Shown: positions 9,849-28,367 of the stretch, piece by piece | Layout of the letters: every line of letters starts with the position of its first letter | How positions within the stretch are numbered: the first letter of the stretch is position 1 | Origin: Candidatus Omnitrophota bacterium | GTDB lineage: Bacteria > Omnitrophota > Gorgyraeia > Gygaellales > Profunditerraquicolaceae | NCBI GenBank assembly: GCA_026387355.1 | Contig: JAPLLW010000009.1 | Span: forward strand, 401-44,293 | DNA: 43,893 bases | Direction: 5' to 3' | Translations under genes and position numbers: made by a program | Notes under the pieces: generated by a model | What the model saw: only the letters and a program-made list of their open reading frames with translations | Database searches by the model: none | Told to the model about the DNA's origin: nothing

Positions 9849-9870
9849 AAGTAGCGTAATTAATAATACG

Positions 9871-10338
9871 ATGAGAGAAATAGAAAAAGCTTTAAAAGTT
9901 ATGAAAGTGAAGGAATTTGTTCAAGTAGCTACGGCTAATAAGGTAGGAAAGCCAAATTCCGCTCCGAAATTATTATTAAAGATAGATGGTGTGATAATTT
10001 ATTTTATCGATTACAGTATAGGTAAAACCGCTGAGAATCTAAGGGTTAATCCAGAGGTTTCTTTATCGTTTATTGATATCAATTCTCTTTTTGGATATAG
10101 GTTGAACGGCAAGGTAGAAATCATTGAAAAAGGCAAGATTTATGATAAATGCCTAAAAGAGTTACGGGAAAAGGAGATTGGGCTTTCTGTGGAGCGTATC
10201 GTCAAAGGAGTGCAGGATGGTATGGCGCATAAAGATTTTGAGTCGGAAATGCCTGAACGTTTTCTAATATATAAGGTTAAAATAGAAGAAGGTTGTGAAA
10301 TAACCCCTCGTGGTGTAATAAAACGGGAAAATAGCTGA
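9871..10338 (+). CDS. Pyridoxamine 5'-phosphate oxidase-like FMN-binding protein
   Basis: A 155-residue split-barrel flavoprotein of the PNPOx-like superfamily. Visible features are the N-terminal helix followed by FVQVATANKVGKPNSAPK, then IDYSIGKTAENLRVNPEVSLSF, the typical SxGKTAxNLRxNPxVSL pattern of this group, and a strand with GYRLNGKVEII. Such proteins bind FMN or related cofactors and their substrates are usually unknown. It lies 22 nt after the PqiA-like gene with no obvious terminator between, so it may be the tail of the same transcript. No partner gene suggests a specific reaction. Confidence 0.75.
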   Translation: MREIEKALKVMKVKEFVQVATANKVGKPNSAPKLLLKIDGVIIYFIDYSIGKTAENLRVNPEVSLSFIDINSLFGYRLNGKVEIIEKGKIYDKCLKELREKEIGLSVERIVKGVQDGMAHKDFESEMPERFLIYKVKIEEGCEITPRGVIKRENS

Positions 10339-10396
10339 TAGTATTAGGTAAATCTTCTTAAAGGGATGGACTTAACCGTTCAGCCATTTTTGTTTG

Positions 10397-10416
10397 TGCC
10401 CAAAATGTGCCCATCC
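10397..10416 (+). repeat. Direct repeat copy 1 flanking the permease gene
   Basis: The sequence tgcccaaaatgtgcccatcc recurs at 11948-11967 with one mismatch (19 of 20). Each copy also contains an internal near-repeat of TGCCCA. The two copies bracket the amino-acid permease gene on either side. Confidence 0.7.
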
Positions 10417-10484
10417 AAGTGAAAAGCATCGGGTAACAAAGGGGATAATTGGGTAACATTCAGATTTTCGAAGGGTAGAAGTTA

Positions 10485-11867: not shown

Positions 11868-11947
11868 CAAAGATAAAATACTAAATAAATTGCAAAAAAA
11901 GTTTTTATTAAGATTTTCGAATGGTTAATGAACTAAGCGAATTCTTC

Positions 11948-11967
11948 TGCCCAAATTGTGCCCATCC
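11948..11967 (+). repeat. Direct repeat copy 2 flanking the permease gene
   Basis: The sequence tgcccaaattgtgcccatcc is the second copy of the 20 bp repeat at 10397-10416, with one substitution. It lies 80 nt after the permease stop codon. Confidence 0.7.
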
Positions 11968-12027
11968 TATACAGAAATAACACTAAACAAACCATAGCAA
12001 AACTAAACAGCCGGACACCATAACTCA

Positions 12028-12055
12028 TTGACAATACAACCGTTAGTTATATAAT
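12028..12055 (+). promoter_or_regulatory. Sigma-70 type promoter for the secreted-protein gene
   Basis: A perfect -35 box TTGACA at 12028-12033 and a perfect -10 box TATAAT at 12050-12055 are separated by 16 nt. Transcription would start near 12062 and give a leader of about 140 nt before the ATG at 12203. Confidence 0.7.
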
Positions 12056-12202
12056 GTTTTGTAACGACGAGAGTTAGGGAAATATGCTCGGCAGATTCAC
12101 TGCTTCTGCGTTTGTTTTTTAAGCACAAATTGGTCATTTGACCTTGTAGTAGATTAAATATTACTTAAGGCAAATTAAGATATCGGAGGATTTGGAAGTT
12201 TT

Positions 12203-12799
12203 ATGTTTAAGAAATTATACTTAAGTCTAATCCCGGCAATCTTATTTTTCGTATCTTTAGCTTTTGCCGCAGACGAAACCCTTACCATTACCACCTACTA
12301 TCCTTCTCCATATGGTAGTTATAATGAATTAAAAACAAATTACCTCCAGTTTGGAAAAATATCTGTTCCGCCAACCGAAAATGATCCTTGTGTTTTGGAT
12401 GATGAAGGAAAAGTTTCATATAATAGCAAAGAAAAGATGCTGTATTTATGCATTGGTAATTATTGGGTAAGATTAGTAAGGGATTTAAGTCAGGAGGAAG
12501 CAGGGAATAGAATGCTAAAAAAACAGGCAATTCCATCATTTGATTCTGCAAAAGAGGTGTTAAATGTGAAGGGGGATTTTAACGAGCATAAATACGATGA
12601 GTCTATTCTAGAATTAACTAAAGCCATTAATCTCGATCCCAATTATTTTGAAGGTTACAAGAAAAGAGCAGTTTTTTATTATTTCAAGCATGAATACGGT
12701 AATGCTTGGAATGATGTGCATAGTGCGGAGAAGTTGGGAGCTATAATTAGTCAGCGGTTTCTTGAGGATTTGAAGAAAGCATCGAATAGAAAAGATTGA
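12203..12799 (+). CDS. Secreted TPR-tailed protein with a TTYYPSPYGSY motif
   Basis: The first 22-23 residues are a signal peptide ending near AFA/AD. Directly after it comes TLTITTYYPSPYGSYNEL, a motif I associate with many exported Omnitrophota-type proteins. Then a short beta-rich segment with two cysteines follows (about residues 60-95), and residues ~125-195 form a TPR-like tail (YDESILELTKAINLDPNYFEGY). The last ~45 residues resemble the end of the TPR protein at 42387-42890: both have AWNDVH/SWADVH, then a leucine-glycine turn and LKKASxRxK. It has its own consensus promoter, and a GGAGG lies about 16 nt upstream of the ATG. Function is unknown; protein-protein contact at the cell surface is the most one can suggest. 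Confidence 0.7.
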   Translation: MFKKLYLSLIPAILFFVSLAFAADETLTITTYYPSPYGSYNELKTNYLQFGKISVPPTENDPCVLDDEGKVSYNSKEKMLYLCIGNYWVRLVRDLSQEEAGNRMLKKQAIPSFDSAKEVLNVKGDFNEHKYDESILELTKAINLDPNYFEGYKKRAVFYYFKHEYGNAWNDVHSAEKLGAIISQRFLEDLKKASNRKD

Positions 12800-12945
12800 T
12801 TATCTATTTAATTTTACGTCCTAAGTGATGAATACTTTTGATTAAAGTTTGGTCGGTGTATTCCCCCGCCTCTTTGATTTTTTGTATTTTTGTTTTTAGT
12901 CCAGTGCAACATTCCTAAACTTATGTTAATTAAGATGACTACCGA

Positions 12946-13806
12946 ATGAAGAAAATAATTGTTGTGTTTGCATTAGTCGTGTCTTTAGTTACCTCGGGTT
13001 GCGCTACTTTTCCGGGTAATCAGCTGCCAAAACAAGCAGTTAAGCTTCAGATTATGAAAGAAGCTTGTTTAGTCTCTGAGAATGTTTATTTTGATGAATT
13101 AACAGCTAATATTTTTCCAACTCCGCAGACGCCAAATATGGGAACACCGATAGAATATTTCGCTCCGTATTTGAGACAAGTTATTGTTGATGCGAGAGGT
13201 TCATTTATTTCTGTTTTCCAGGAAGCTGTGGATGCGCGAATGGCAATATTTAACGCGCTATCAAACCATGAAAAGAGAGTTTTGATATGCGGTAGCGCTA
13301 GGTACACTAAAGAAAAAATCGGAGGGGTGGTGAGGGAATCGGTTAGTTATGAAGATCTTACCGGAGATATGCCAATAGAGAAAGTAGTGGCTCTTTATAA
13401 ATCGTGGGTGGTTGCTGCAGAATCAACCGTATTGGCGAATAAAATGAGGTCAGATATAAAATTTCGCGAAGAAATACTAGCTTCCGGGGATGTATGGTTT
13501 GATTGTAAGACTTCTGTTGTGGAGGGAAATTCTTCTACTTGCTTTCTGGAAGGCCTCTTGTGCGTCTTAAGCGGTTCAATAATACCCGCTCATCATAGAA
13601 AAGACATCAATGTAAAGATTTCAATTTATACTATAAATGGGAAGATACATGAGTATGAATATAGGGATAGCTATAATTCAATTGTCTGGTTACTGTTTTT
13701 GCCTATTGGGCTAGTTCAGAATCCAGTTAGAATAATTAATTCAGTCATAAACAATATGGCAATCACGGCACTGCTTGATTATCAGAAAGATCAAGGTAAG
13801 GAGTAG
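12946..13806 (+). CDS. Hypothetical lipoprotein
   Basis: The N-terminus MKKIIVVFALVVSLVTSGC is a lipoprotein signal with the lipobox cysteine at residue 19, so the mature protein should be lipid-anchored. The remaining ~265 residues give no family I recognise. Visible features are a segment with DVWFDCKTSVVEGNSSTCFLEG carrying two cysteines (a possible disulfide), followed by a hydrophobic stretch (GLLCVLSGSIIP) and a second hydrophobic stretch near VWLLFLPIGLV. It lies between the TPR-tailed secreted protein and the radical SAM operon; 146 nt and 34 nt separate it from them. No function is proposed. Confidence 0.7.
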   Translation: MKKIIVVFALVVSLVTSGCATFPGNQLPKQAVKLQIMKEACLVSENVYFDELTANIFPTPQTPNMGTPIEYFAPYLRQVIVDARGSFISVFQEAVDARMAIFNALSNHEKRVLICGSARYTKEKIGGVVRESVSYEDLTGDMPIEKVVALYKSWVVAAESTVLANKMRSDIKFREEILASGDVWFDCKTSVVEGNSSTCFLEGLLCVLSGSIIPAHHRKDINVKISIYTINGKIHEYEYRDSYNSIVWLLFLPIGLVQNPVRIINSVINNMAITALLDYQKDQGKE

Positions 13807-13840
13807 CCTAGGTGATTTTTGTTGGTGAAACTGGTGGCGA

Positions 13841-14746
13841 ATGATGAGAAAACTAGATATAAAAATAGGCTACCGATGTAATAATTTCTGTCTTCATTGT
13901 GTCCAGGGAGATAAGCGTAAGAAATTTCCCAAAAGACCGATTAGAGATGTTTTACGTGAATTAGCCATAGCCAGGCATGAATGCGATGCGGTTGTCTTTA
14001 CCGGAGGGGAACCTACTCTCCATCCAAATTTCTTAAGTTTTGTAAAATTCGCAAAAAGATTGAACTACGCAGAGATACAAATACAAACCAATGGTAGAAT
14101 GTTCTCTAGCGTTGATTTCACTGAAAAATGCATAAAAGCGGGTGCAAATCATTTCGCTCCGTCGCTACATGGGCACAATAGCGATCTTCACGACTTTCTG
14201 ACTCATTCACCGGGAAGTTTTGCTCAGGTCTGCCAGGGGATAAGAAATATTAGGAAATATACAAAAAACATCATTTCTAATACAGTGATCAGCCGGTTTA
14301 ACTATCGTTATCTTCCTGAAATAGTGAAATTGCTTGTTGGTTTAAGAGTTGATCAAATACAACTTGCATATGTGCACATTACAGGAACTGCTTTAAAAAA
14401 TAAAGATACCATCCCGGAAAAGAAGTCAATTATTATGCCATATGTAAAGAAAGCGATACGTTTGGGGAAGGCGTCGGGGAAGAGGATGTGCACTGAGGCC
14501 ATTCCTTATTGTTTTATGGCTGGATATGAAAAATATATTGCAGAAGCTTTTATTCCTCCTACGAAGATGGTAGAACAATCATTTACCGTAGATAAATATG
14601 AAGAGTTTAGGGTAACTAAGGGTAAATCTAAAGGCCCCCATTGTAAAGATTGTATCTATTTTGTTAAGTGCGAAGGCCCATGGAGGGAATACCCTCTGAT
14701 TTTTGGCTGGGATGAATTTAAGCCGGTGCAAAAGAAGTTGAAATAA
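13841..14746 (+). CDS. Radical SAM protein with an auxiliary cysteine cluster
   Basis: A 301-residue radical S-adenosylmethionine enzyme. The CX3CX2C motif binding the catalytic [4Fe-4S] cluster is Cys13, Cys17 and Cys20 (CNNFCLHC), and the SAM-binding GGEP is at residues 55-58. Near the C-terminus Cys268, Cys271 and Cys277 (CKDC...KC) form a short auxiliary cluster site reminiscent of, but smaller than, a SPASM domain. This layout is common in enzymes that modify peptides or small cofactors. It is followed after 15 nt by a DUF483-like protein and then a TPR protein with no gap, so the three form an operon. A second ATG at 13844 is an equally possible start. Substrate unknown. Confidence 0.85.
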   Translation: MMRKLDIKIGYRCNNFCLHCVQGDKRKKFPKRPIRDVLRELAIARHECDAVVFTGGEPTLHPNFLSFVKFAKRLNYAEIQIQTNGRMFSSVDFTEKCIKAGANHFAPSLHGHNSDLHDFLTHSPGSFAQVCQGIRNIRKYTKNIISNTVISRFNYRYLPEIVKLLVGLRVDQIQLAYVHITGTALKNKDTIPEKKSIIMPYVKKAIRLGKASGKRMCTEAIPYCFMAGYEKYIAEAFIPPTKMVEQSFTVDKYEEFRVTKGKSKGPHCKDCIYFVKCEGPWREYPLIFGWDEFKPVQKKLK

Positions 14747-14761
14747 ATAAACTCGTAAATT

Positions 14762-15730
14762 ATGGACAAACTTTTATTTTCCAATTATAAGCCAGAAAGC
14801 TTCTGTCGGGAATTTGTAGAAATAAAAGGCAATTCTATGCAGTTGGCAATGTACATGTCTTTAGTTTTAGGATTTAAGCCTTTAATGGACGACTGGATCC
14901 CGGTTAAAAAGTTAGCGGAATTCAGAAAAGCCTGCCATAAGTATAAAATTTATATGCGGGAAGACGTTGTATTTGATCATCGCAAGAAAAACGAAATTAA
15001 ATCAAATGTTTTAGGAAAAGATTGTCTGACTACTACCTGTGCCCAGGGCCTTCCTTTCAAGGAAGGTGCCGGCGGGTTTCTGCATATATTTTTGTCAAAG
15101 GATAAAAACATACTTAAGAAAGGAGTATGGTACCCGCTGGTAATTAAAAATAGGGTTATTTTTCAGCCAAGGATTGATAATTTAAAATACGGATATGTTT
15201 TAGGATATCCGGATTGTTGTGTTAAGTTCTTCAGTAAATTCAATAACTGGAAAAAATACAGCTTTTTATACGAAGCATATAAGAATACAAGAAATAAGCC
15301 ATCGTTTCTGTGCAACCCTTTTCTAAAAGCCACAAGTTTTTCTTATATCTTCCATATGCCTTGCAGCTATAGCTGTAAAAACACAATTAGTTTAGTAAAT
15401 AATTTACGAAAAGAAATTAAAAAGAAAGAGCCGTATTTTGTAGCATTAACCGATAGTTATCTTAAGTCTGTGTTTTTAGTTTTTTACGAGGATAAAAGCT
15501 ATTGTTTTGACGGAGATTTAAAAGATGATTTGTTAAGATACCGTACCGCGTACTATACTTTTCCAGGTAAAACAAAAGATATCTATGGGAAGAATCTTAA
15601 AAAAGCGGATTCGCTTAAATTGGAATCCAGAAAGCTCATTTTGTATCACAGGAATAAGGTCAATGAGATTATTGATGTGCCTATGAATAGCACTGCTCCA
15701 GAATTTCCGTTTTTGATTAAGTTTTCATAG
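14762..15730 (+). CDS. DUF483-like cysteine-motif protein
   Basis: A 322-residue soluble protein. The recognisable part is GYPDCC (Cys152, Cys153), followed ~45 residues later by FHMPCSYSC (Cys201, Cys205). That paired-cysteine pattern is what I associate with the DUF483 family, whose function is not known to me. A further pair occurs in CLTTTC (about residues 88-93). Six conserved-looking cysteines could bind a metal or cluster, or be substrates of redox chemistry. It starts 15 nt after the radical SAM gene and its stop lies 1 nt before the next ATG, so it is very probably made together with both neighbours. The family call is from memory and could be wrong. Confidence 0.6.
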   Translation: MDKLLFSNYKPESFCREFVEIKGNSMQLAMYMSLVLGFKPLMDDWIPVKKLAEFRKACHKYKIYMREDVVFDHRKKNEIKSNVLGKDCLTTTCAQGLPFKEGAGGFLHIFLSKDKNILKKGVWYPLVIKNRVIFQPRIDNLKYGYVLGYPDCCVKFFSKFNNWKKYSFLYEAYKNTRNKPSFLCNPFLKATSFSYIFHMPCSYSCKNTISLVNNLRKEIKKKEPYFVALTDSYLKSVFLVFYEDKSYCFDGDLKDDLLRYRTAYYTFPGKTKDIYGKNLKKADSLKLESRKLILYHRNKVNEIIDVPMNSTAPEFPFLIKFS

Positions 15731-15731
15731 A

Positions 15732-16226
15732 ATGAAGAATAATCTATTAGAAATAAGAAAAGAATTTTATTTGATGACAGGAATCATGCCTATCCATGCA
15801 ACTAACTATTTAGAAAATAAGGCAATCCGTAAAGATATGATTTTTGAGCGATTAGCTGAGCAAACATTTGATAACCATAAAATGTTAAATGTTTTAATTA
15901 AGAAAATAAAGATATGGCTATCGCTTGATCAATCAGAGTTTACCAATTGTTTAGCTGGATATATATATTATTTAAATGAAGATTTTGAAAACGCCAAAAG
16001 ATATTTTTTAAGAGCAATTGAGCGAAACCCTAGTAATCTAGATAATTGGTTTGATTTGGCTTTTAGTTTGTATCATTCAGAAGAGCGAGAGCAAAAATTA
16101 GCTAAAGATATCCTTTTTAACTTTGATTTGTTTATTAAGCGATTTAGTAATCAAAAAGACAAACATAAGAGCATTTCTATTGTTCAGCTAACAAAGTTTG
16201 CCATGGTTTGCCATTGTAAAATGTAG
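15732..16226 (+). CDS. TPR-like protein of the radical SAM operon
   Basis: A 164-residue protein with no signal peptide. The middle (about residues 70-115) has a tetratricopeptide-like pair of helices: AGYIYYLNEDFENAKRYFLRAIERNPSNLDNWFDLAFSLY. The N-terminal 65 residues are not recognised. The C-terminus ends with two cysteines in MVCHCKM. The ATG begins 1 nt after the stop of the DUF483-like gene, so it is translationally coupled to it. TPR proteins usually present partner proteins, so it may act as an adaptor for the two upstream proteins; this is inference from position only. Confidence 0.65.
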   Translation: MKNNLLEIRKEFYLMTGIMPIHATNYLENKAIRKDMIFERLAEQTFDNHKMLNVLIKKIKIWLSLDQSEFTNCLAGYIYYLNEDFENAKRYFLRAIERNPSNLDNWFDLAFSLYHSEEREQKLAKDILFNFDLFIKRFSNQKDKHKSISIVQLTKFAMVCHCKM

Positions 16227-16249
16227 CTTCAATTGAAGGGTTTAGATAG

Positions 16250-16310
16250 TTGTCAAAATAAGCACCATGAAAAATCAGGCGAAGCGAATATGCGCGGGCC
16301 GTTTTGACAA
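16250..16310. repeat. 9 bp inverted repeat with a 43 nt spacer
   Basis: TTGTCAAAA at 16250-16258 is the exact inverse of TTTTGACAA at 16302-16310. There is no T-run directly after it, so it is not a clear terminator. It lies between the TPR gene and a small membrane-protein gene. Confidence 0.4.
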
Positions 16311-16350
16311 GTAGAGATTAAAAAATAAAGGGGCAGCTAAGTCAGGGTGG

Positions 16351-16815
16351 ATGGAAAAGAAAAGGTCAAAAGGAATTATTATTTTTAGTATTTTAATCTG
16401 TTCGTACGCATTATGGGATTTGAATACCTATTCCGATTTTAGGCACTATGCTTTTTTGTTCCAGCCTTTGCCGGAAAGAATAATTTTAGTCCGCTATTTC
16501 TTTTCTATTTTCTTAAGAATCGTTCTGGTTATCACAGGCATAGGTATTTTGTTTTTAAATGAATACTTTCGAAGAATAATATTATTTATTAGTTTTTTCA
16601 CTGTTGCAACCATTTATTGGAAGCATCCTGTGATTTGTTTTAAAAATATTGTAATGAATCTGGTAGCGCGAGGAGCATTTACATCTGACGTAACATTGAC
16701 GCCTGATACGGTAATATGGATATTGATTGTGATTAATTATATTATTGATATCAGTTTTGCTCTGTGCTTAATATATTTTTTTACACGTCCTCAGGTAAAG
16801 GAGCAATTCAAGTGA
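16351..16815 (+). CDS. Hypothetical four-helix membrane protein
   Basis: A 154-residue protein with about four hydrophobic segments (residues ~8-22, 45-65, 72-90 and 120-145) and short charged loops. It belongs to no family I recognise. The next gene encodes another small membrane protein of similar size, and the two may form a pair. The start at 16351 is preceded by AGGGTGG rather than a strong ribosome binding site, so the start is somewhat uncertain. No catalytic motif is visible. Confidence 0.6.
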   Translation: MEKKRSKGIIIFSILICSYALWDLNTYSDFRHYAFLFQPLPERIILVRYFFSIFLRIVLVITGIGILFLNEYFRRIILFISFFTVATIYWKHPVICFKNIVMNLVARGAFTSDVTLTPDTVIWILIVINYIIDISFALCLIYFFTRPQVKEQFK

Positions 16816-16872
16816 TTTTTAGTAGTGAAACTTGTGGTTAAATCAATTTAACAAAAAAAGAAAGGAGAGACA

Positions 16873-17226
16873 ATGATAAGCGAAAAAACAACAATTATAT
16901 TTATTAGGAGCGCAGCCATACTTGCTTTTATTGCTGGGTTAGTAACATTATTAATTATTTTTACAGGTAAGTTCGGGTTCAATATGTACAATCTGTTAGA
17001 TGTTTTTCTTTTTTGGGGTTTGAGCTTCGGGATACTTAAAAAAAGCAGAACTTGTGCCATCATAGTGTTGGTGTATCATTTATTAAACAGAATAGATATG
17101 TTTAGGAGGACGCAAAGTTTATCGATCTCGTTTGGTTTGGTTTCAATTATTGCTATTGTTATATATTTCTTGGGTATATTAGGAACATTTGCATACCATA
17201 AGAAGTTGAAATTGCAAAATAAATAA
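16873..17226 (+). CDS. Hypothetical small membrane protein
   Basis: A 117-residue protein with four hydrophobic segments (about residues 10-30, 38-52, 60-72 and 88-108) and a basic C-terminus. A strong ribosome binding site, AAAGGAGAG, lies 5 nt before the ATG and makes the start secure. No family is recognised. It follows the four-helix membrane protein by 57 nt and precedes the exported Ntn hydrolase gene. Confidence 0.65.
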   Translation: MISEKTTIIFIRSAAILAFIAGLVTLLIIFTGKFGFNMYNLLDVFLFWGLSFGILKKSRTCAIIVLVYHLLNRIDMFRRTQSLSISFGLVSIIAIVIYFLGILGTFAYHKKLKLQNK

Positions 17227-17302
17227 TCACCTAAATAAATAGTTATCCTTCAACAAGGTGGTAATTGGTCTTGAAGGCAGTAAAGGGCCAAAAGGAGGGG
17301 AT

Positions 17303-18430
17303 ATGTTAAAGATCGCCAGATATATTTTTGGGGTCATATTTTTGTTTATTTTTACCTCGGTTTCTTATGCCTGTACAAGTCTTAGAATAAAAACTACTGA
17401 TGGCTATGTTTTCTACGCCAGGACTTTGGAAGGGGTATCATTTGACTCCACAATTTCTATTATACCTAAAGATACGGTTTTTAAAGGAACCCTCCCTGAT
17501 GGCGCACAAAAAGGCTTGAGTTGGACCACTAAATATGGAATGGTCGGTATGAATGCATTTGGTTTACCCATGTTGATCGACGGCGTTAATGAGAAAGGGT
17601 TAGCCGTTGGAAATCTGATGTTTCCAGGTTTTGCCGAATATCAAACATTTGAAGCTAGGGATTCCTCAAAGACTATTGCGCAGTGGGAGGTAGTTAGTTG
17701 GATTTTATCTAATTTTGCCACAGTAGAAGAGGTTAAGGAAGGTATAAAGAATATTCGTGTCTGCAAGCAGGCGGATGATAAGAAAGGCTTTTTAGAGCTG
17801 CATTATACAATACATGATCCGAGTGGTGCAAGTTTAGTTATAGAATATGTTAAGGGAGAGCTAAAGGTTTATGATAACCCGATAGGCGTTTTTACTAATT
17901 CTCCTGCGTTTGATTGGCATCTAATTAATTTAAGAAACCATATCAATATTTCTGCAGTTAATGTACCTCTTTTTGAAATAGACGGACTGAAGGCGTCAGG
18001 CTTAGGACAGGGGACAGGAATGCTTGGCCTACCGGGAGACTATACGCCTCCTTCGAGATTTGTACGCATGACAGCGCTTGTGCTTTCAGCGCTTCCGGTA
18101 ACTGGTCCGGACGAAGGACTAAACTTAGCTATGACTTTGATAAATAATGTGGATATTGCAAAAGGGGCCGTTAGAGATATGGGTAGCAAAGGGCCCGTTT
18201 ATGATACTACAGACTGGGTGAATGTAACTGATTTAGGAAGAAAAAGATTTTATTTCCGTACCTATGATAATAAGAATTGGCGCTTTGTGGATGTAGATAA
18301 GGCGCTTAAGAATACTAAAGCAGTAATGTTTATACCTATTAAGACCGCCCCTGAATATACTGATGTTACGGGAGAGGCTAAAGAATATGGAAAGGTGCCT
18401 TTAGATTATTTTCCTGCTGGAAAGCCGTAA
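17303..18430 (+). CDS. Exported Ntn hydrolase of the choloylglycine hydrolase / penicillin V acylase family
   Basis: Cleaves linear amide C-N bonds using an N-terminal cysteine. The first 23 residues are a signal peptide ending VSYA, and the next residue, Cys24, is followed by TSLRIKTTDG, the typical start of the mature enzyme. Signal cleavage would therefore expose the catalytic Cys directly. Further family marks are the segment GLPMLIDGVNEKGLAVGNLMFPG and FTNSPAFDWHLINLRN, which holds the conserved Asn-Ser-Pro turn. I use the ATG at 17303, which has AAAGGAGGGG just upstream; a longer frame from a GTG at 17258 would bury the signal peptide. Possible substrates include N-acyl amino acids, acyl-homoserine lactones, bile-salt-like amides and penicillin V; which one cannot be read here. 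Confidence 0.87.
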   Translation: MLKIARYIFGVIFLFIFTSVSYACTSLRIKTTDGYVFYARTLEGVSFDSTISIIPKDTVFKGTLPDGAQKGLSWTTKYGMVGMNAFGLPMLIDGVNEKGLAVGNLMFPGFAEYQTFEARDSSKTIAQWEVVSWILSNFATVEEVKEGIKNIRVCKQADDKKGFLELHYTIHDPSGASLVIEYVKGELKVYDNPIGVFTNSPAFDWHLINLRNHINISAVNVPLFEIDGLKASGLGQGTGMLGLPGDYTPPSRFVRMTALVLSALPVTGPDEGLNLAMTLINNVDIAKGAVRDMGSKGPVYDTTDWVNVTDLGRKRFYFRTYDNKNWRFVDVDKALKNTKAVMFIPIKTAPEYTDVTGEAKEYGKVPLDYFPAGKP

Positions 18431-18558
18431 GATTAAAGTAAATATACCTAAATAATAAATTACAACTCAAAATTTAACTCAAAAGTCGTATTTTCGATTT
18501 TTCCTCACAAAATACTCCCATAATAAAGAAAACGCTTTCAAAAACTCGCCAAATAGCA

Positions 18559-18586
18559 TTGAATCTCCTTACCTATATAGTATAGT
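18559..18586 (+). promoter_or_regulatory. Candidate promoter of the giant gene
   Basis: TTGAAT at 18559-18564 and TATAGT at 18581-18586 are separated by 16 nt. The predicted transcription start is about 35-40 nt before the start codon of the giant gene. Each box has a mismatch to consensus. Confidence 0.4.
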
Positions 18587-18625
18587 TTTATTAGTCGGCC
18601 ACAGCACTAAGATCTAAAGAGAAGA

Positions 18626-21600
18626 GTGAGTAAAATGAGCCATAAGCCTAATAAAATTATATCTATTTTATTGTGTTTTTTGCTTATTTTTGAGCAGTCT
18701 GCATTTGCGCAACCGCTTGTCAATCTGAATATATCTAAGTATTTAGGTTTGCGTCAAGGCCCTTTATTACCGGATAGATTCAGGCCTTTGCATTTGCGCT
18801 ATCTTTCTTATGATATTAAAAAAAGCAATTTTCAATTGCTCCTAGATAGAGGAGATACGCAAGCCCCAGCTAAGAAAGAGATAGAAGATTCAACTAAAAC
18901 CCTTCTGAAATATTTCTTTATTGGCCTTACCCTCCCTAATGACGTTTTCTGGGTAAACTTACGCCCTGATTCCCCCGATGATATTATTGACAGTAGGTTG
19001 GCTAAAACTGATATTGGCAGAATTTTTCTTGAAGCGGATTTGCAACTCAAGAAAGACACTGCTAATTTTACTAATCCAAATACTCCTGTGGGTAAAGAGT
19101 ACTGGGATAAGCTTTATAAAAAAGCAGGCGAGCTTTTTGGTTCCGAAAATGTGACTATTCCTACTTTAACTAGGCCCTGGATTGTAGCTGATGAGATTAT
19201 TATCAGGGAGGCCGAAGCTAATGCCTATATTTACAAAGCTACCCTGAAGGTTATGCTTGAGCAGGATTATTTAAAGAATAGTGCCACGTATAACTTTGAT
19301 GACCCACGGTTAAAGAAATTAAATGAATATTCAAGTCAGCTTATTAGGGAGCTGGTTATTCCGAATCTGAATAAAGAGATTAATAATTCTAAAAGATACG
19401 CTGCTCTTAGGCAGGTTTATTATTCGTTAATATTAGCTCAGTGGTTTAAGGATCGTCAGCGTAACCAGAGTGGCCCATATTCTAAGCTAATTGATTCAGG
19501 TCGCCTAAGCGGTCTTGTTTTAACGGAAAAATATTCCAAAGATTCTTACTTTAAGGCCTATCAAGAATCATTTAAAAACGGTGAATATAATGTTAAAGAG
19601 CCGCGCCAGGGTCTTTATGGCCAGGTAGTCAGGAGCTATTTTTCCGGAGGAATGAATCTCGAGAATCTTAATAGGACTCAAGGCCAGACCTTGGCTAATT
19701 CTCCTATAGTTATAGCAGCCTTGGTCAATTCGGGGAGAAATATCTCAGCCAATGTAGAAATGGCAGGAGATTTTCAAGTAAGAGAAGTCTCTACTCAGTC
19801 TGTCCAAGCTACTCCGGTTGTTCAAGCCGCCCTACCTCTCCAAAATACTGTTACGGCCAGGGAAAATGTCAGTCCTTCAGTAAATACGCCTAAGCCAGGA
19901 AGGATTGGGACAAATTCCGAACCCGGAGATAACGGGGCCATAGGTAAAGGCAGCGCCCTTCAATTACGCCAGGCGATAAGAACCTCAAGTGTTCCTAATA
20001 AGGATATTGTTCTAAGAAAGATAAATGAGCTGAAAGAAAAGATCGCCTCGGCTACTTTGGGCGTTGAAGAAAAAAAGAATGCCGATTTAGTAATTGCAAA
20101 ACTAACGGAGTTATACCAGAAAAATGCCATTGAGGTATTTGACGCTATTGTCAAAGGGCAGGAAGATTATCTGCTTGCCTTCGCCGGGAGTAACAAGCTT
20201 GCGCTTATGTCAGATATGTTCTCTCCTCAATTTAGCGATTACCTGGATGAGCTTTTATTCCATGAAGGATATGTAGCAGTTTTTGGTGAAGGATCATATG
20301 ATGCGCACCGCGCAATAGTTTATGGGATCCAGAGAAAGATCTTTGGGCAGGAAAATCCTCTGCGCGATATTCTAAGAAGATACATAAATCAGCATAGCCC
20401 TAAAGTTAAAGAAGAAAGCAAGAATGCGCTTACTACCTTGCGAGATGCTTATCCTGCGGAGTATCCCCAAATATATAGCCTTATTATTAAAGCAATAGGT
20501 GAAGAGAATATTAATAAAATCAGCGAAGTCAATTTGAACGGTAGTAGTATTCAAATAAAACTTAATAACGGAGAAGTAAAAGTAGTTCCGCAAGATGTTT
20601 CAAAGCTAATCTTAAATGAATACGAGCGATCTAATTGTCTGCTATCGCAGCGCGATAATTCCGCAGTTATTCTTTTAGAAAATAAAACAACAGCTCTATC
20701 GTCAACCAGCCTAGTTGGTTATTTAAGTAATTTCTACAAGATTACCTGGGGTAATCCTCAAGCAAACGGCAGCGTAATCATTGGCCAAGATCAGTTGGTC
20801 GGGTTGTTGACCGATATGAAGACAGTTAAAATGTTCGGAAAGTTTACTAATCGCATTAATGCGATCCTAGCCAAATTAGAGAAACCTAATAGATATAAGT
20901 TAGGTTCTGAAGTCAGGAAAGAAATAGATTTACTTAGCGAAGAGATTAAGGATATCGCGCCTGTTTTAAGTGCAAGGCTTCAATTTACCAGCACAATGAA
21001 TGAAGATGAGTCTAAAGGGTTGCAGCCGCTATTTCTTGTGCGAAGCATTTCTCGCGCAGATATACTTTCAGCTTTAGGCATAAGATCAAGACCAGAACTT
21101 CTTGGCTTCTTAAATCACTCAGGATTAATGTCGGATTTGATGCGCGCATACGGGGAATCAGAGGTAGGTAATATATTTGTGGTTACCAGTGGAAACTTGT
21201 TAGATTTTTTGAATAGATTAAAAGAGAGTGATTTTATTAATTTACTAGCCATAGATTACTATCATCAAAAAGATAATTATATCGAAGCAGAAACTTCAGG
21301 AAATCCGCTGCGAGAGCCTTCGGTAATCTTGCCATTTGGGCAAAAAGAACCAGTCGTATTTCTGGAGTATCTTAGTCCTTTAAACAGAACTTTATTTAGT
21401 AGAGAAGTTAACCATATTAAGGGGTTTAATCAAAGAGGTATTCTAGCGCAAAAAGGATTTGTTACTCAAGTTGTAGGTTTTTTCCCGGGCCTTGGAAGTG
21501 CCAGTGATTATAGGGATCTTGGTAGCAAGTTGTATGATACGGGTATTCCTGAGGTCCAAAGGATATATAATGAAGCAGCCCGGGCATTAGGCTATATAAA

Positions 21601-24600
21601 AAATGGCAAACCTGATTCGAGCAGGTTATTTTTTAAGGCAGAAAATATGCCTCAAGATAAAACTGCGAAGATGGGTTTTATCTCTGCAGCATTTCTGGTG
21701 CATAATCTTGCGCTACATGCATATCTTAAACATCTTGCTCGAGAGAACTCTAATCCCATAAATTTCACGGCTTACACAGGCGAGAGCTTAGGTATACTTA
21801 CCGCAGCAGTAGCCAGTGGATCTCTTTCTGTAGCCGATGGTGTGAAAATTGCGCAATACTTCATTCCGCGCATTATCGAAACAGCTAATGAGGTTGTTGA
21901 TCAAGAACATCATGTTATAGGAATAAGCGCAGATAATATAAATCAAATTTTGCGTGAACTAACGCAAGAATTTGGCGCTGATTTTGAAGTGCATAAGTAT
22001 TTCTCCGGTTATCCTGAAAGCCAGGTAAATGTTTTTGTTTCTGCAAAAAGAGCCGCTGATTTCTACAGGGTTATGAGCCGTAAGTATCCGCAAGCAACAG
22101 TTAAAGAGCTTAAGCCGCCGACTACTTTTCTTGCGCATTCAAGTAAAGTTAAGAGTGCGCGTGAAGATTTGGTTAAATTTATCAGGCAAAACCGTATTTT
22201 GTTTCAACAGCCGCTAACGCCGGTTGTCTCCAATAATAACTCCGGTATCCTTACTAGCTCAGATGATATCCGGCAGGCAGTTTTAGGAATTATTGATGAA
22301 CCTATGCATTCGCAGGAAACATCCCGCCTTGTGGACACTCTTGGGGCTGATTTAGTTGTAGAGGTAGGACTTGGTGGAAAATCAGAATCTTTACTTAGTC
22401 AGAACCGGGTGAGAACCCCGGCTACTTCTTTTACCGGTAATGACAATGTTTTATTGCTTTCGGCATTAACTAGAGTCTCGCAATTAGAGAATGCGGTTGA
22501 AGAATTGAAACGGACAGGGAAGTCTCAGGAGTTAGATAGCCGTTATTATGATATTTTAAGGAGATTTTTTGTGATTGCCCAATCAAATCAGTTAGCTAGA
22601 AAAATGGGCTTTCGTGTTATAGAGAGGGGAATACAGGAGGGGATGTTGCAAGAGCACGCTATCTATTCGCCTGCCTTTTATGAGTTCTTAGAGATTTTCC
22701 AGAATACATATCTGTATCGTTTCTATGTCGAAACTTCCTTAACCCCGGAACTTGCATTGGACGATTTAGTGGTTTCAATGAGATTAAAGAGACGTATTTT
22801 AGCTTCTAAGGATCAACAGAAGATCGATTTAGACGCTGTTATAATGGACAAAAACGGCGTTAAATCTAATGTCTATTACCTTGATTATAAATATCCTGAA
22901 TCTGTGACTTTTAACTTTAGCCGCCTGCATATTCCAGACGAAGAGCTTGCTCGTAAGGCGAGTGAACTTATTGAAACACAGCCTATGGCAGCAGAAATCT
23001 ACGAAAAAATACGTCGAGATCTTAGGTTGCCAAGTTTAGATTATTTTACTAGCGCTTCTTATGATGATAATAGTGATAAAGCAGGCATACGCATGATTGT
23101 TTATCAATTCGTAATGTTTAAGCTCATGCAGCTATATCGACCGGCTGTCTTAGGACAGAACTTTTATTATGTTTCAGGAATGGACGATGTTGGTTTATGT
23201 ACTTCTTTAGCGGTAAGCGGGGCACTTTCTATAGAAAATGCTATTGCACTTTTCCAAAAACAGGGAATTATGAACTTTGCTATAAATGATGCAGTTATCA
23301 AGATAATCGATCCTAAAACAGGCGCTGTTTTGAAGAGCAAATCACAAATTTCGGAATTAATCAATAATTTGAGTGGAATTACAGCCAATCTTACAACAAT
23401 GAAAAATAACTTTAATAGCTGGATTGTTTCATTTGATGCCGCTGAGAAGTCTAAAGATAAGTTGCCGGTAATTTTTAATCAAGAACCCATTATTATTAGT
23501 AGTATGGAGGATATCTGGAGGAAAGATCTTAATGTTTTACTTGATGTTCTGGAAGAGCTGTCAATTCTTTTGTTTACCGATCAAAACGGTAAAGTATACC
23601 GTTTTGCAGAAGGTAGGGGGATTTCCACGGCCAATATTTATGCCTATGTGAATGCCGATGAAAGAGTAATTGGCTTTGGCAAGGGAGGAAGCGAGTCTTT
23701 AACTATTTTCTTGATGAAGCCGGGGAGCACAGAGATTACAGTGAGAAAGGTATTGAGCGAGCGTTTGATTACGGCTATCTGGGATCGTTCTGGAAGCGGG
23801 GTAATGCTTCCGCCATTTAAAAAGGCTCTGGCTCAGGCCCGTTTTTTGCAGGGGCTCCCAGAAGAAACCCAGCAATATTTTCCGAGAGTATCTAATATTG
23901 AAGAAAGGGATCTTCCTATTCCTCCGGGTACACCTGAGGCAGAGAAATTCGGAAGTGCTTATCACGAGTTAATTTATGATATGAATTTTATTCCCGGAGA
24001 TGAGGTGAGCGAATTTATCAGAAAATACAATCCTGCGCCAAAGGTGGTTGCGCGTTTATACGAAGAGATATTCCGCGTTCTAGAAGAAAAGGTGCATTCA
24101 CAGAGAAGAAGAGAGCCAAAACGTCCGAGTCTTGAATCTTCGTATTTTAAGAAGATTGAGGATCGTCTTGTCCTATCAAGAAAAACTGCCCCGCAAGTAT
24201 TTAACAATAACCTGCTAGATTCGGAGTACATCACTATTAACGGAGTGCGTTATTTGAATATTAAGGGTTTACTCAGAAGATTCAGGGAGCATCCTGAATA
24301 TTTGAAGATACTTGAGCCGGTTTTTCATTCGCTTGTCTCTGGAGATACCAATACCGAGAATATTAAGATAACCAATATAGAGCCAATACTCAGGGCAGTT
24401 AGAGAAGGAAATGCTAATTTTACCGCTGAAGAAATAGGTATTAAATTTTTTGATCCCCGGGCAATTGGATATTATGAAGATGGTAGAGATACCGGCTCAG
24501 ATGATCCAATGTATGATAATAAGCCCTGGCATAATTCTATCGGAGAATATGATGTTATTCACGGTGAGCATTTTGATTTAGTTGTCACTAAAAATTCTTC

Positions 24601-27600
24601 CGGTGGTGTGCAGCTTGAGATGAAGATTCATAGCGATAATCCTTACGCTGCTTCTTATGCGGGTATTGAGCAGTATTTTAAAGAGGTAATGACAAAGGCC
24701 CTGGATCTTGATAATCCGAATTCGGAGTTCTTAAAAAATGATCCCTATTGGGTGATTCGTTTTGCTTTTATTATGGGTACGCATTTTGCAGCCATGCCCC
24801 CGTTTCATTTTAAAACTGAAGAGGATGGTCGGTTGATTGATGATTATACCAACCAAAGGCGACCCGTAGCGATATACGCCGAAGGGATTAAATGGTTGAA
24901 TCTTGCGCTGGATATGTTAGAGGGGAGGAAGACAGAATATCTTGGTTTTAAAGTTCCTCAGGTTCCACAGGCTCCGCCAGCTAAATCGGTTGCTTTGGTT
25001 AAGCTAAGCGTGCCGATAAACGGCCCTCAACAATTAAGCAATGAATCGCGGACTTTTCTTAGCCCCTGGATGCGCATTGTGAGGGCAACTGCCGTAGGCC
25101 AGTATCCTGTTAATTTTGATAATCAAACCGCTTCTAATTTAAGGCAGGCACTTAAGGCGTTAGAAGGCAAGATCCCGGCGAGCAATAAGTATCAGAAATT
25201 CACCGGTCTTTTGACTAATTTGATTCTGGATATTAACAATCCGGTAAACAAAGTAGATGCGCAAGAATTAAAGAGGCGTACCGATGAATTAGTAGCTGCC
25301 CTTAAGGAGATTGAGGATCCTTCTGCTTATGTTTTAGCAAGCTCGATGTTATTCGATTCATTTGCAAAGCTCGGAGTTAACAGCGAGTTGTTGGTGAATG
25401 CTGATAGAGACTTAGTTAATGATGCGCTTTCAAAGCTAGCCCAAATTGAAATAGATAAGGGGGCTAAGGGGGCTTATGAAAGATTGCTTGCCTGCGTAAC
25501 AGTATTTTTGTCAATCGGACAATTGGGATTTAAAGATAGATTGACCCAGGAGAATAATTATGTGTCAGAATCTTTGGATTTATTGAGTAACATAGAGAGT
25601 GCTTTCTATAGAGGACGCTCAGCAGCTAGTTTATTCTCTGCGCTAAAGGTTTTAGGGTATGAGGGTTATATTTGGGGTGGGGATAAGGATTATTTTAAGG
25701 AAACATTAGATTACCTTGATGCTAATCTTTGGAAGGCAGCAGAGGCGCAAGTCGGGCATGAGGATATTTTTGATAGCGTTTATCCGGTGGTTACGATTTT
25801 GAATGCTATGGCTCTTTGTGGAAAACCAGAATACCTGACATATAAGAGAGATTGGGTTGAAGAGGGGAAGATATTTATAGATAAGATCTCGCCTTCTGAT
25901 CGTATGAATCAATTGCAGTATTTTCTTATAGCCTTACGTAATCTCGGAAAACTCAATGAGTATTTTCCTGATCTTAGAAGTTATCTAAAAAATATTATAG
26001 ATGCCTATATTGAGCATGGTAAGACTCACAAAGAAGATTCGCAGCTTTATGTGAGCATGGATGATACTTATGTAGTTGAAACATGCTGGATGTTTGGTTA
26101 TCAGGATTTAATACCGGATAGCATTATTAACCGGTTGGTAAGCAATATGGCAACATATAAGATTGGAGAATCTTATTTTAATATGGATTATGGTCTTAGC
26201 TATGCCTTGACAGCGTTAGCAGAAGTTGGCCAGTCTAATCTTTTATTTGAACCAAATGTTGATTTTGGTAACGAGGAGCCATTTAATTGGGTTATTAATC
26301 ATTTTACTCCAGCAGAAGTTAATTCTATTACCCTTCCTTATATTTTTCATTCAATAGTCGGATGCGCATTAAGGATGCGTGGACTAGGTAATCCGGAGAC
26401 TGCCATATTTAAGCCAGATCCTGTAGCAAGCAGGAGCACTCAGGTAGTCTCTAAGGCTATTACCGGGGTAGAGAGGTTGGGTTCTTTTAGTCGACAATCG
26501 CGCGCATTCTTCAGCCCGTGGATTAGGTTAGTAAGAGGATTTGCTCTAGGAGAAAATCCGGGAGAATTTGATTCTCAGATGGCCAGTAATCTGCGTCAAG
26601 CCTTAGCTGAGATAAATAATAAAGTATCTTCCGATAATAATTTTAACCGTTTTGCCAGCAGCCTTGCAGGGCTTATTCTTGATTTTAATGAACATAAAGG
26701 CCTTTCTGCTGAAGTGATGCGTCCAAGAATACAATCAATGGTTGAATCAATACAACAGATACAAGAGCCCGATCTTTACGTGCTTGCGTCTTCGGTTTTA
26801 ATTGATTCATTGGCAAAGTTAGGGATTGATTCTTCTTTTCTGGTCAATGACAATTTTGATTTAGTAGATGCAGCGCTTAAGAAGGCCCAGGAGATACCTC
26901 AGGAAAAAGGAGAGAAAGGCGCTTATGAGAGGCTAGCTGCTTATTCCACGCTCTTGTTAGCAGTGGGCAACTTGGGTTTAAAGGATCGCATTGTTAATGG
27001 AAAAGAAAACCATATTATTGCGGCTTTAAATTTAATAGAAACTATACCTAATGCTTTTTATCGCGGTAGAGGGGCATCTGCAATTTTCTTGACTGCTAGC
27101 ATGCTTGGTTATAAGGACCTGGTGATAAGTAGCGGCAAGGATTACTTGAAAGAGATATTGGATTATTTTGACGAGCATCTTGACACTCGAACCGATACTA
27201 CGCAAATGAAGAAACGGCCCATATTTAACACTGATCCGCTTTGTACAGTATTAAATGCCATTGCCTTTTTAAATAAACCGGAATATTTAAATTATAGAAG
27301 AAATTGGATTGAAGAGGCAAGGTGGTTTATGTCACAGTTGCCGCCTCATGCCGCTGCTTCTCAGGTGCAGTATTATATCTTCTCTTTGTATAATTTAGGT
27401 AAGCTCGGCGAATTTATCCCCAATGTCGATGAATATGTAAAAGAAGCTATAGATAATTACGTAAAATTTGGCGGGAATACAGATGCCTTAGATGATAATA
27501 TGAATGACGCTTATATGTTTGAAATCGCCTGGCAGATTGGCAGAACCGATTTAATTCCTCAAGCGATGGCTGATCGCATGCTTACGCAATTTTGCAAGTA

Positions 27601-28300
27601 TCCAGCGGGCGAGAAATACCGCAATTTCCCATTCGGAGGAGCATATATTTTATCTGCATTAGGCGAGGCAGGCAAGGCAGGTTTACTATTTAGTCCGCAT
27701 AATAGCTATGGTGGCCAGTCTCCGTTAATCTGGGCAATACGGAATTTTTCCGAAGGAGGCAGGGACGAAAGATCTACGCTTACCTATTTGCATTTTTCAA
27801 TAATAGATTCTGCTTTACGTATGAGAGGTAACAGCGGAGCAACTGAACAAGGAGATTTCCTTGGGGAGTTAGCGCCTAATTCAGCAAACGCTGGGCCTGC
27901 AAATCCTGTTCCTGGATCAACCAGAGGAGGTATTGATTTTCGTTCGCTTCCAGTGTTTACTGGAGCAGTGGGTAATTTAAGCTTGAAAAATAGTCCTGCT
28001 TCGATAGCTAGCCTAAAGAAAATGGAATTGTTCCGCGAGAGGCAAGAAATGCAAAAGTTAATTGATTCGGGAATTGTTCCTTCTGCCGAGCGCATAAAAG
28101 AGTTTGTTCAGGCCTCTTGTCTTCAGGGCAGGTTAAACAGTAATATTGATAAGGTAGTGCTTTGTATATCCGATATATTTAGGGCCGAGGAGGCTAACTG
28201 CTCACCTTCTGACCCGGTGCTTAAAGACATTTTAGCTATTCTTGAGTCAGACTTAACGGATAGTGAATTGAAGGATATCTTCGTAGGTGTTAAGGCATAA
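18626..28300 (+). CDS. Giant exported multidomain protein with acyltransferase and kinase-like modules
   Basis: About 3224 residues. The signal peptide is at 1-28 (SAFA/Q). Residues ~35-345 resemble a conserved N-terminal region of large Omnitrophota proteins. Residues ~945-1240 are a malonyl-CoA:ACP-type acyltransferase: FFPGLGS, GESLG with nucleophile Ser1054, and FLAHS with His1171. Residues ~1480-1560 repeat part of that fold, but the elbow reads GMDDVG (1518-1523) with no Ser. Residues ~1660-2010 resemble aminoglycoside/choline-type kinases: GFGKGGS, VRKV, SGDTNTEN (Asp1907, Asn1912; the usual His is Ser1905) and FFDPR (Asp1943). Two helical repeats fill ~2132-2589 and ~2614-3070. It starts at GTG 18626 or ATG 18635, has its own promoter, and ends at a terminator. 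Acyltransferase chemistry behind a signal peptide is puzzling. Role unknown. Confidence 0.82.
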   Translation: MSKMSHKPNKIISILLCFLLIFEQSAFAQPLVNLNISKYLGLRQGPLLPDRFRPLHLRYLSYDIKKSNFQLLLDRGDTQAPAKKEIEDSTKTLLKYFFIGLTLPNDVFWVNLRPDSPDDIIDSRLAKTDIGRIFLEADLQLKKDTANFTNPNTPVGKEYWDKLYKKAGELFGSENVTIPTLTRPWIVADEIIIREAEANAYIYKATLKVMLEQDYLKNSATYNFDDPRLKKLNEYSSQLIRELVIPNLNKEINNSKRYAALRQVYYSLILAQWFKDRQRNQSGPYSKLIDSGRLSGLVLTEKYSKDSYFKAYQESFKNGEYNVKEPRQGLYGQVVRSYFSGGMNLENLNRTQGQTLANSPIVIAALVNSGRNISANVEMAGDFQVREVSTQSVQATPVVQAALPLQNTVTARENVSPSVNTPKPGRIGTNSEPGDNGAIGKGSALQLRQAIRTSSVPNKDIVLRKINELKEKIASATLGVEEKKNADLVIAKLTELYQKNAIEVFDAIVKGQEDYLLAFAGSNKLALMSDMFSPQFSDYLDELLFHEGYVAVFGEGSYDAHRAIVYGIQRKIFGQENPLRDILRRYINQHSPKVKEESKNALTTLRDAYPAEYPQIYSLIIKAIGEENINKISEVNLNGSSIQIKLNNGEVKVVPQDVSKLILNEYERSNCLLSQRDNSAVILLENKTTALSSTSLVGYLSNFYKITWGNPQANGSVIIGQDQLVGLLTDMKTVKMFGKFTNRINAILAKLEKPNRYKLGSEVRKEIDLLSEEIKDIAPVLSARLQFTSTMNEDESKGLQPLFLVRSISRADILSALGIRSRPELLGFLNHSGLMSDLMRAYGESEVGNIFVVTSGNLLDFLNRLKESDFINLLAIDYYHQKDNYIEAETSGNPLREPSVILPFGQKEPVVFLEYLSPLNRTLFSREVNHIKGFNQRGILAQKGFVTQVVGFFPGLGSASDYRDLGSKLYDTGIPEVQRIYNEAARALGYIKNGKPDSSRLFFKAENMPQDKTAKMGFISAAFLVHNLALHAYLKHLARENSNPINFTAYTGESLGILTAAVASGSLSVADGVKIAQYFIPRIIETANEVVDQEHHVIGISADNINQILRELTQEFGADFEVHKYFSGYPESQVNVFVSAKRAADFYRVMSRKYPQATVKELKPPTTFLAHSSKVKSAREDLVKFIRQNRILFQQPLTPVVSNNNSGILTSSDDIRQAVLGIIDEPMHSQETSRLVDTLGADLVVEVGLGGKSESLLSQNRVRTPATSFTGNDNVLLLSALTRVSQLENAVEELKRTGKSQELDSRYYDILRRFFVIAQSNQLARKMGFRVIERGIQEGMLQEHAIYSPAFYEFLEIFQNTYLYRFYVETSLTPELALDDLVVSMRLKRRILASKDQQKIDLDAVIMDKNGVKSNVYYLDYKYPESVTFNFSRLHIPDEELARKASELIETQPMAAEIYEKIRRDLRLPSLDYFTSASYDDNSDKAGIRMIVYQFVMFKLMQLYRPAVLGQNFYYVSGMDDVGLCTSLAVSGALSIENAIALFQKQGIMNFAINDAVIKIIDPKTGAVLKSKSQISELINNLSGITANLTTMKNNFNSWIVSFDAAEKSKDKLPVIFNQEPIIISSMEDIWRKDLNVLLDVLEELSILLFTDQNGKVYRFAEGRGISTANIYAYVNADERVIGFGKGGSESLTIFLMKPGSTEITVRKVLSERLITAIWDRSGSGVMLPPFKKALAQARFLQGLPEETQQYFPRVSNIEERDLPIPPGTPEAEKFGSAYHELIYDMNFIPGDEVSEFIRKYNPAPKVVARLYEEIFRVLEEKVHSQRRREPKRPSLESSYFKKIEDRLVLSRKTAPQVFNNNLLDSEYITINGVRYLNIKGLLRRFREHPEYLKILEPVFHSLVSGDTNTENIKITNIEPILRAVREGNANFTAEEIGIKFFDPRAIGYYEDGRDTGSDDPMYDNKPWHNSIGEYDVIHGEHFDLVVTKNSSGGVQLEMKIHSDNPYAASYAGIEQYFKEVMTKALDLDNPNSEFLKNDPYWVIRFAFIMGTHFAAMPPFHFKTEEDGRLIDDYTNQRRPVAIYAEGIKWLNLALDMLEGRKTEYLGFKVPQVPQAPPAKSVALVKLSVPINGPQQLSNESRTFLSPWMRIVRATAVGQYPVNFDNQTASNLRQALKALEGKIPASNKYQKFTGLLTNLILDINNPVNKVDAQELKRRTDELVAALKEIEDPSAYVLASSMLFDSFAKLGVNSELLVNADRDLVNDALSKLAQIEIDKGAKGAYERLLACVTVFLSIGQLGFKDRLTQENNYVSESLDLLSNIESAFYRGRSAASLFSALKVLGYEGYIWGGDKDYFKETLDYLDANLWKAAEAQVGHEDIFDSVYPVVTILNAMALCGKPEYLTYKRDWVEEGKIFIDKISPSDRMNQLQYFLIALRNLGKLNEYFPDLRSYLKNIIDAYIEHGKTHKEDSQLYVSMDDTYVVETCWMFGYQDLIPDSIINRLVSNMATYKIGESYFNMDYGLSYALTALAEVGQSNLLFEPNVDFGNEEPFNWVINHFTPAEVNSITLPYIFHSIVGCALRMRGLGNPETAIFKPDPVASRSTQVVSKAITGVERLGSFSRQSRAFFSPWIRLVRGFALGENPGEFDSQMASNLRQALAEINNKVSSDNNFNRFASSLAGLILDFNEHKGLSAEVMRPRIQSMVESIQQIQEPDLYVLASSVLIDSLAKLGIDSSFLVNDNFDLVDAALKKAQEIPQEKGEKGAYERLAAYSTLLLAVGNLGLKDRIVNGKENHIIAALNLIETIPNAFYRGRGASAIFLTASMLGYKDLVISSGKDYLKEILDYFDEHLDTRTDTTQMKKRPIFNTDPLCTVLNAIAFLNKPEYLNYRRNWIEEARWFMSQLPPHAAASQVQYYIFSLYNLGKLGEFIPNVDEYVKEAIDNYVKFGGNTDALDDNMNDAYMFEIAWQIGRTDLIPQAMADRMLTQFCKYPAGEKYRNFPFGGAYILSALGEAGKAGLLFSPHNSYGGQSPLIWAIRNFSEGGRDERSTLTYLHFSIIDSALRMRGNSGATEQGDFLGELAPNSANAGPANPVPGSTRGGIDFRSLPVFTGAVGNLSLKNSPASIASLKKMELFRERQEMQKLIDSGIVPSAERIKEFVQASCLQGRLNSNIDKVVLCISDIFRAEEANCSPSDPVLKDILAILESDLTDSELKDIFVGVKA
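25020..26390 (+). repeat. Internal coding repeat A of the giant gene
   Basis: Encodes about 457 residues, mostly helical, from LSNESRTFLSPWMRIVRA to CALRMRG. It aligns without large gaps to repeat B at 26465-27836: SNLRQAL, YVLASS, AKLG, KGAYERL, a D-x-Y segment and ALRMRG recur in the same order. The protein similarity is clear, but the DNA has diverged. Confidence 0.8.
26465..27836 (+). repeat. Internal coding repeat B of the giant gene
   Basis: Second copy of the 457-residue helical unit, from LGSFSRQSRAFFSPWIRLV to SALRMRG. The alternating helices with GG-A-L-ALGEAGK turns suggest an alpha/alpha solenoid or toroid, but no catalytic motif is visible. Confidence 0.8.
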
Positions 28301-28304
28301 GCTT

Positions 28305-28367
28305 AAAGGGGCATCCCGTCTTTTGGTGTTGTGGCCAAAGAGACCTTCCTTTCGATGCCCCTTTTTT
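28305..28367 (+). terminator. Terminator of the giant gene
   Basis: AAAGGGGCATC at 28305-28315 pairs with GATGCCCCTTT at 28354-28364, followed by a T-run. The 38 nt between the arms can form a further TTTGG/CCAAA hairpin. It starts 5 nt after the stop codon. Confidence 0.8.

Follow-up and report, generated by a model that had tools for sequence, protein, structure and literature searches.

How can a protein that carries an export signal also carry an enzyme domain that draws on cytosolic substrates? We consider one open reading frame of Candidatus Omnitrophota, in a 43,893-nucleotide stretch of DNA (the whole of which we call the window), for which the original prediction had pointed to an export signal at the N-terminus and to a downstream acyltransferase that depends on coenzyme A and acyl carrier protein. 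The conflict between the two is real, and it is not peculiar to this gene, in that the same N-terminal module appears to export many other enzymes. The parts of the gene and its protein are as follows, all on the + strand.

18626-28300, +, focus open reading frame, 3224 aa, 9.7 kb
18626-18709, +, signal peptide, residues 1-28 (ending ...LLCFLLIFEQSAFA, then Q), conserved in 60 family N-termini with FAQ nearly invariant
18626-19651, +, constant N-module, residues 1-342, ending in YFSGG, 45-68% identical to most family N-termini
19652-21448, +, unassigned linker or region, residues 343-941
21461-22480, +, acyltransferase (AT) of FabD fold, residues 946-1285, from the TIGR00128 match, AlphaFold2 model, Foldseek and tree
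21785-21787, +, codon of Ser1054
22136-22138, +, codon of His1171
22481-24958, +, X region of AT-X, residues 1286-2111; AT-X as a whole is ~42% identical to Streptomyces plasmid proteins
25016-26467, +, Y copy 1, residues 2131-2614, 34-37% identical to the gene adjoining AT-X on Streptomyces plasmids
26468-27829, +, Y copy 2, residues 2615-3068, 30-34% identical to the same Y gene, a tandem duplicate of copy 1
27926-28297, +, constant C-module, residues 3101-3224, starting GGIDFRSLPV, helical, which blastp also finds in 35 fetched relatives
28308-28361, +, terminator-like hairpin (GGGGCATC...GATGCCCC TTTTTT) 3' of the stop codon, read directly from the letters

The frame starts with GTG and has an alternative in-frame ATG three codons on, at 18635; a start downstream of the signal sequence had been raised as a possible objection, and the signal peptide is retained from either codon. 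The loop of the hairpin is longer than an automated hairpin scan allows. A Pfam scan of the whole 3224-residue protein gives no significant match, the acyltransferase and the C-module included, and Pfam and NCBIfam searches find no family in residues 343-941, where sequence conservation ends at the GG that precedes the region. Just upstream of the gene (17258-18430) lies a frame with a signal peptide that resembles choloylglycine hydrolases and penicillin acylases, and the next gene downstream, at 28516, resembles periplasmic-binding proteins; both resemblances come from reading the sequence.

The acyltransferase and its plasmid relatives

We begin with the fold of the acyltransferase. Residues 952-1250 match the NCBIfam model of fabD (TIGR00128) with E=5.5e-10 and 39.2 bits, far below the equivalog cut-off of 260.9 bits, and a PDB sequence search returns the FabD entry 5ypv (E=1e-9). 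The AlphaFold2 model of the domain (pLDDT 87, pTM 0.87) was built from an alignment that contained FabD rows, so that independent support for the fold comes from the profile match. Structure prediction had been proposed as the deciding comparison with FabD, and a FabD-like fold is what it gives: Foldseek places the model with VinK and FabD structures at E ~3e-18, and the TM-scores of FabD entries are mostly 0.75-0.84 (on the target). Ser1054 in GESLG and His1171, named beforehand as the catalytic residues, do align with the FabD dyad, lie 117 residues apart as had been counted, and are both kept in relatives.

The active site also differs from that of FabD: Gln11 is replaced by Leu, Arg117 by Phe1079, and GHSxG by GESLG. 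In the same alignment the FabD rows of the host and of a relative carry the conserved Gln and Arg of the E. coli reference row. Because Gln11 and the malonyl-binding Arg117 are both replaced, malonyl specificity appears unlikely, so that of the predicted malonyl/acyl-CoA:ACP transferase the fold stands and the malonyl label does not. Set against FabD (TIGR00128, PF00698), the domain is alike in fold, Ser-His dyad and overall length, but it is 22-26% identical, has GESxG for GHSxG, and falls in a separate AT-X clade with support of 98-99 (the tree places G158, a very long row, with uncertainty). VinK and PksD, acyltransferases or hydrolases of polyketide pathways, are the nearest or near folds in Foldseek, yet they share 16-19% identity with the domain, and the focus protein has no PKS module. 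The genome of the window encodes its own canonical, standalone FabD; that the domain is a duplicate of it is ruled out by its grouping with AT-X proteins.

The domain is in fact part of an AT-X protein of ~1170 residues, which exists as a separate gene in Streptomyces, Acinetobacter and, as a fragment, Cellulomonas. The architecture of the focus protein had been thought to be without a name; this holds for the domain libraries and literature searched, and AT-X itself is known as a separate plasmid gene. The Streptomyces AT-X (1240-1257 aa, annotated as ACP S-malonyltransferase, without a signal peptide) aligns with 99% of residues 942-2110 at 41-42% identity, and the Cellulomonas fragment, on a contig of 75% GC, is 37% identical over residues 942-2110. 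In Streptomyces a gene Y of ~500 aa follows, the product of which matches residues 2131-2615 and again 2615-3068. The pair is carried by plasmids of Streptomyces sp. NBC_00503 and NBC_00388 and by pRW1 of Acinetobacter larvae (loci L132, L133 and L134); the Streptomyces pair adjoins an MFS transporter and an ArsR regulator. Between the plasmid pair and the focus protein the full length of AT-X (~42%), Y (34-37%, Streptomyces) and the order AT-X then Y are alike, whereas the Streptomyces pair is two proteins without a signal peptide and the focus cargo is fused, with Y doubled, between export modules.

Does the fused order occur elsewhere in the phylum? A search for it in other Omnitrophota genomes had been suggested, and in G421 we find AT-X-Y-Y likewise fused in the same order, 46% identical over residues 946-3069, behind an N-terminus that is unrelated to the N-module and has its own signal peptide. 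This second module (G421:C237, 7581-9260, GKTVIHIQDAHCNYGAQ...VTGGFHTGNISKLF) gives no match in a family search. From the unfused plasmid pair and the G421 fusion behind a different signal-peptide N-terminus, the comparison of sequences indicates that a mobile two-gene AT-X/Y operon has come to sit behind export modules of two different kinds. Within the class, the acyltransferase has its closest relatives in giant frames of 3,130, 29,111 and 44,856 aa, and others occur in named Omnitrophota MAGs. Methyltransferase, acetyltransferase and histidine-phosphatase domains lie near the acyltransferases in the two longest (L124 and L126, in G211 and G158).

The X region has kinase-like motifs (VRK, GDTNTEN, DPRA) that line up with APH cargo at a non-significant hhalign E=0.43, and a PDB profile search of the region gives no match; the motifs are only a lead. 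Most APH-kinase matches in the genomes of the searched relatives lie in frames of 1,112-7,918 aa, and kinases may be a frequent cargo.

Constant ends and exchangeable cargo

We turn our attention to the two ends of the protein. For the family comparison 60 loci were fetched and their open reading frames extracted, the searched assemblies being drafts and many of them MAGs. Searched alone, the N-module profile matches the starts of giant frames in 137 of the 384 phylum genomes, and all the matches listed fall in one class. One genome gives up to 78 first-look candidates, with at most a few per genome scored. In the search for relatives, an N-terminus of ~345 residues is joined to unrelated remainders in 50 of 58, an upper figure, as the search also catches plain FabD. 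Identity in the N-module, signal peptide included, is 45-68% across most genera, about 32% being reached by the most distant members, and it stops abruptly at YFSGG; [YF]x[SF]GG is present in 58 of 59 members. The C-module of ~120 residues starts at GGIDF[R]xLPI, and of the 49 complete members 42 carry GGI[DN] close to the C-terminus, the other 7 having no such motif.

In the AlphaFold model of a short member (L066, 776 aa) the N-module is confident and ends at the GG, the C-module is confident and helical, and the cargo is poorly modelled; Foldseek finds no significant PDB match for the whole model, N-module included. The papers searched contain no description of the two modules, and the carrier family is apparently undescribed. 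The window's genome holds a second copy of the N-module, split across two frames (G000:C2:7588-8806), and a GGID motif was looked for downstream of it and not found; either the copy is broken or the assembly is wrong at this point. In the cargo of L035-L094, SS[PA][VILM] is seen 118 times where 11.6 are expected (ten-fold), at some sites near module boundaries; as a linker motif of the family it was set aside, SSP and SSA being absent from the focus protein.

The cargo between the two modules includes, by Pfam, methyltransferases, triosephosphate isomerase (TIM), phosphoglycerate kinase (PGK), fructose bisphosphatase, class II aldolase, phosphoglucomutase, transaldolase, phosphoglucose isomerase, ABC1 kinase, acetyltransferases and an ADP-ribosyltransferase domain, among others, together with enolase and pyruvate phosphate dikinase (PPDK). 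Active-site motifs are intact where checked (TIM GNWKM, GHSERR and AYEPVWAIG; PPDK GGMTSHAA and CGEHGG), and PPDK keeps its catalytic Cys in a chain that has few other cysteines. The carrier copies of TIM are extra copies, since each of the genomes checked (G024, G045 and G048) also has a standalone TIM.

A constant sorting part with exchangeable cargo is also found in polymorphic toxins and in type IX secretion cargo. The carriers, however, have constant modules at both ends, with the cargo in the centre and metabolic enzymes in place of toxins, whereas polymorphic toxins have the variable toxin domain at the C-terminus, where the focus protein has a constant module. Polymorphic toxins also adjoin an immunity gene, and the gene next to the focus frame is the one at 28516 that resembles periplasmic-binding proteins. 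The C-terminal domain of type IX cargo is an Ig-like beta-sandwich, while the carrier C-module is mostly helical in the L066 model and that of the focus protein has no family match. In the excerpts of Seymour 2023 (PMC10066038) and of the lipocone paper (PMC12419801), giant proteins of Omnitrophota are described that share with the carriers the phylum, a multi-domain build, some methylase or signalling domains and a proposed predatory role. These excerpts call them poorly conserved with few domains, and do not describe shared modules or metabolic cargo; Seymour 2023 also works, as excerpted, with a criterion of >20 kb, and the focus frame is 9.7 kb.

Where the cargo acts

The location of the carriers can be approached from the signal peptide and from the cysteine content. 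The predicted export signal at residues 1-28 is borne out by a KPNK n-region, an LLCFLLIF h-region and a cleavage-like site between SAFA and Q. By simple heuristics, as opposed to a trained predictor, 59 of 60 family N-termini have a hydrophobic core and a net positive n-region within their first 75 residues, with a median h-region Kyte-Doolittle value of 2.9. Cysteine makes up 0.24% of the family cargo (per-member median 0.21%) and a median of 1.19% in the window's open reading frames, about five-fold more (Mann-Whitney p ~1e-8, indicative only, the members being related). Paired comparisons give the same picture: the focus acyltransferase has 0 cysteines and the FabD of its own genome 5, and TIM has 0-1 in giant frames and 3-4 as a standalone protein. 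Since the cargo is poor in cysteine and the signal peptides are conserved, the carrier proteins are, as judged from their sequences, extracytoplasmic.

We propose that the focus gene encodes an exported enzyme carrier, one of a family found throughout the class, and that the cargo of these carriers acts outside the cytosol of the producer, plausibly in a partner or prey cell or on its surface, and we give this proposal an even chance. A carrier would be one polypeptide, with a signal peptide and a folded N-module of ~315 residues, a variable cargo and a helical C-module of ~120 residues. Sec export would move it out of the cytoplasm, and the GG at each cargo boundary, where the constant parts end, is from the sequence pattern a possible cut site for release of the cargo. 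In the focus protein the cargo would be the horizontally spread AT-X/Y operon as a single chain with Y doubled, and the acyltransferase a Ser/His enzyme of non-malonyl type that transfers or hydrolyses acyl groups and is coupled to the X region. Because the metabolites needed are found only in cytosol, the most likely place of work for the cargo enzymes would be another cell, a partner or prey, on its surface or within it. The sequences establish the architecture, the spread of the family, the FabD fold, the conserved signal peptide, the depletion of cysteine and, for several members, intact active sites, whereas release at the GG, the recipient and the substrate are inferred. The excerpts of PMC10066038 and PMC12419801 present Omnitrophota as host-dependent or predatory, with giant proteins as adhesins or effectors, a lifestyle that fits action on another cell without proving it. 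No injection system was recognised within the window.

With this family, a single-gene oddity becomes a defined group searchable with two profiles (N-module and C-module). Its cargo suggests that uncultured bacteria, proposed to be host-dependent, export working metabolic enzymes, and it shows that a carrier has captured a plasmid-borne two-gene enzyme system entire. It offers a testable answer for many large "domain-poor" Omnitrophota proteins, which may be carriers. A stronger form of the proposal, which we regard as doubtful, is that entire metabolic pathways are exported by a class of Omnitrophota. The constant end modules would carry active enzymes, of lower glycolysis and of acyl chemistry, out of the cell, and cuts at the paired GG sites would free them in a second cell or in a compartment beyond the cytoplasm, with the result that central metabolism would run outside the producer's cytoplasm.

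The main rival, which we consider unlikely, keeps the cargo with the producer: the carriers would fill either its periplasm or a membrane-enclosed space within the cell, and the enzymes would operate there as a pathway, much as a bacterial version of the glycosome. Two pairs of adjoining carriers speak for it, as they hold consecutive steps of lower glycolysis.

G048:C23 (L127), 1799-7876 and 7975-15867, tandem carriers with enolase+PPDK and aldolase+TIM
G024:C53 (L135), 399-7907 and 8418-12569, tandem carriers with PGK+PPDK and TIM+enolase

Intact active sites, export and low cysteine would be consistent with such a compartment as well. However, ATP, CoA and sugar phosphates have no known source there, the AT-X-Y cargo of the focus protein is unrelated to glycolysis, and most cargo makes up no pathway set. 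Next to the G048 pair lies a frame that reads as an RND-type transporter (16176-19280), and a further N-module frame (L094) adjoins the G024 pair on the same contig.

More unlikely again is a surface role, in which the cargo domains are adhesins or binding scaffolds and catalysis is irrelevant. Surface glycolytic enzymes such as enolase and TIM are known adhesins elsewhere, which counts for this role. So does the proposal, in the excerpts of Seymour 2023 (PMC10066038), that the giant Omnitrophota frames encode adhesins. Against it, catalytic residues are kept, down to the PPDK cysteine, and AT-X retains its GESxG Ser and its His from Omnitrophota to Streptomyces.

It is quite improbable that the N-terminus is no export signal and the protein a membrane-tethered polyprotein in the cytoplasm, a reading whose appeal is that the cargo's substrates are cytosolic. 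The n-region is positive, the FAQ cleavage-like site is conserved, and a hydropathy scan found no other strongly hydrophobic segment in the focus protein. A lysine-rich or positive N-terminus followed by a single hydrophobic segment leaves the remainder outside, cleaved or not, so that an uncleaved anchor, offered originally as a way out of the conflict, would not rescue a cytosolic domain. A membrane anchor with cytosolic cargo was judged unlikely on this topology, the lone hydrophobic segment and the cysteine depletion, and the unrelated signal peptide ahead of the same cargo in G421 also weighs against a cytoplasmic protein. An assembly or start-site artefact fusing unrelated genes, conceivable for a gene from a draft assembly, is in essence refuted, as long frames of many kinds, from dozens of independent genomes, have the same two end modules and the fused AT-X-Y-Y recurs in G421.
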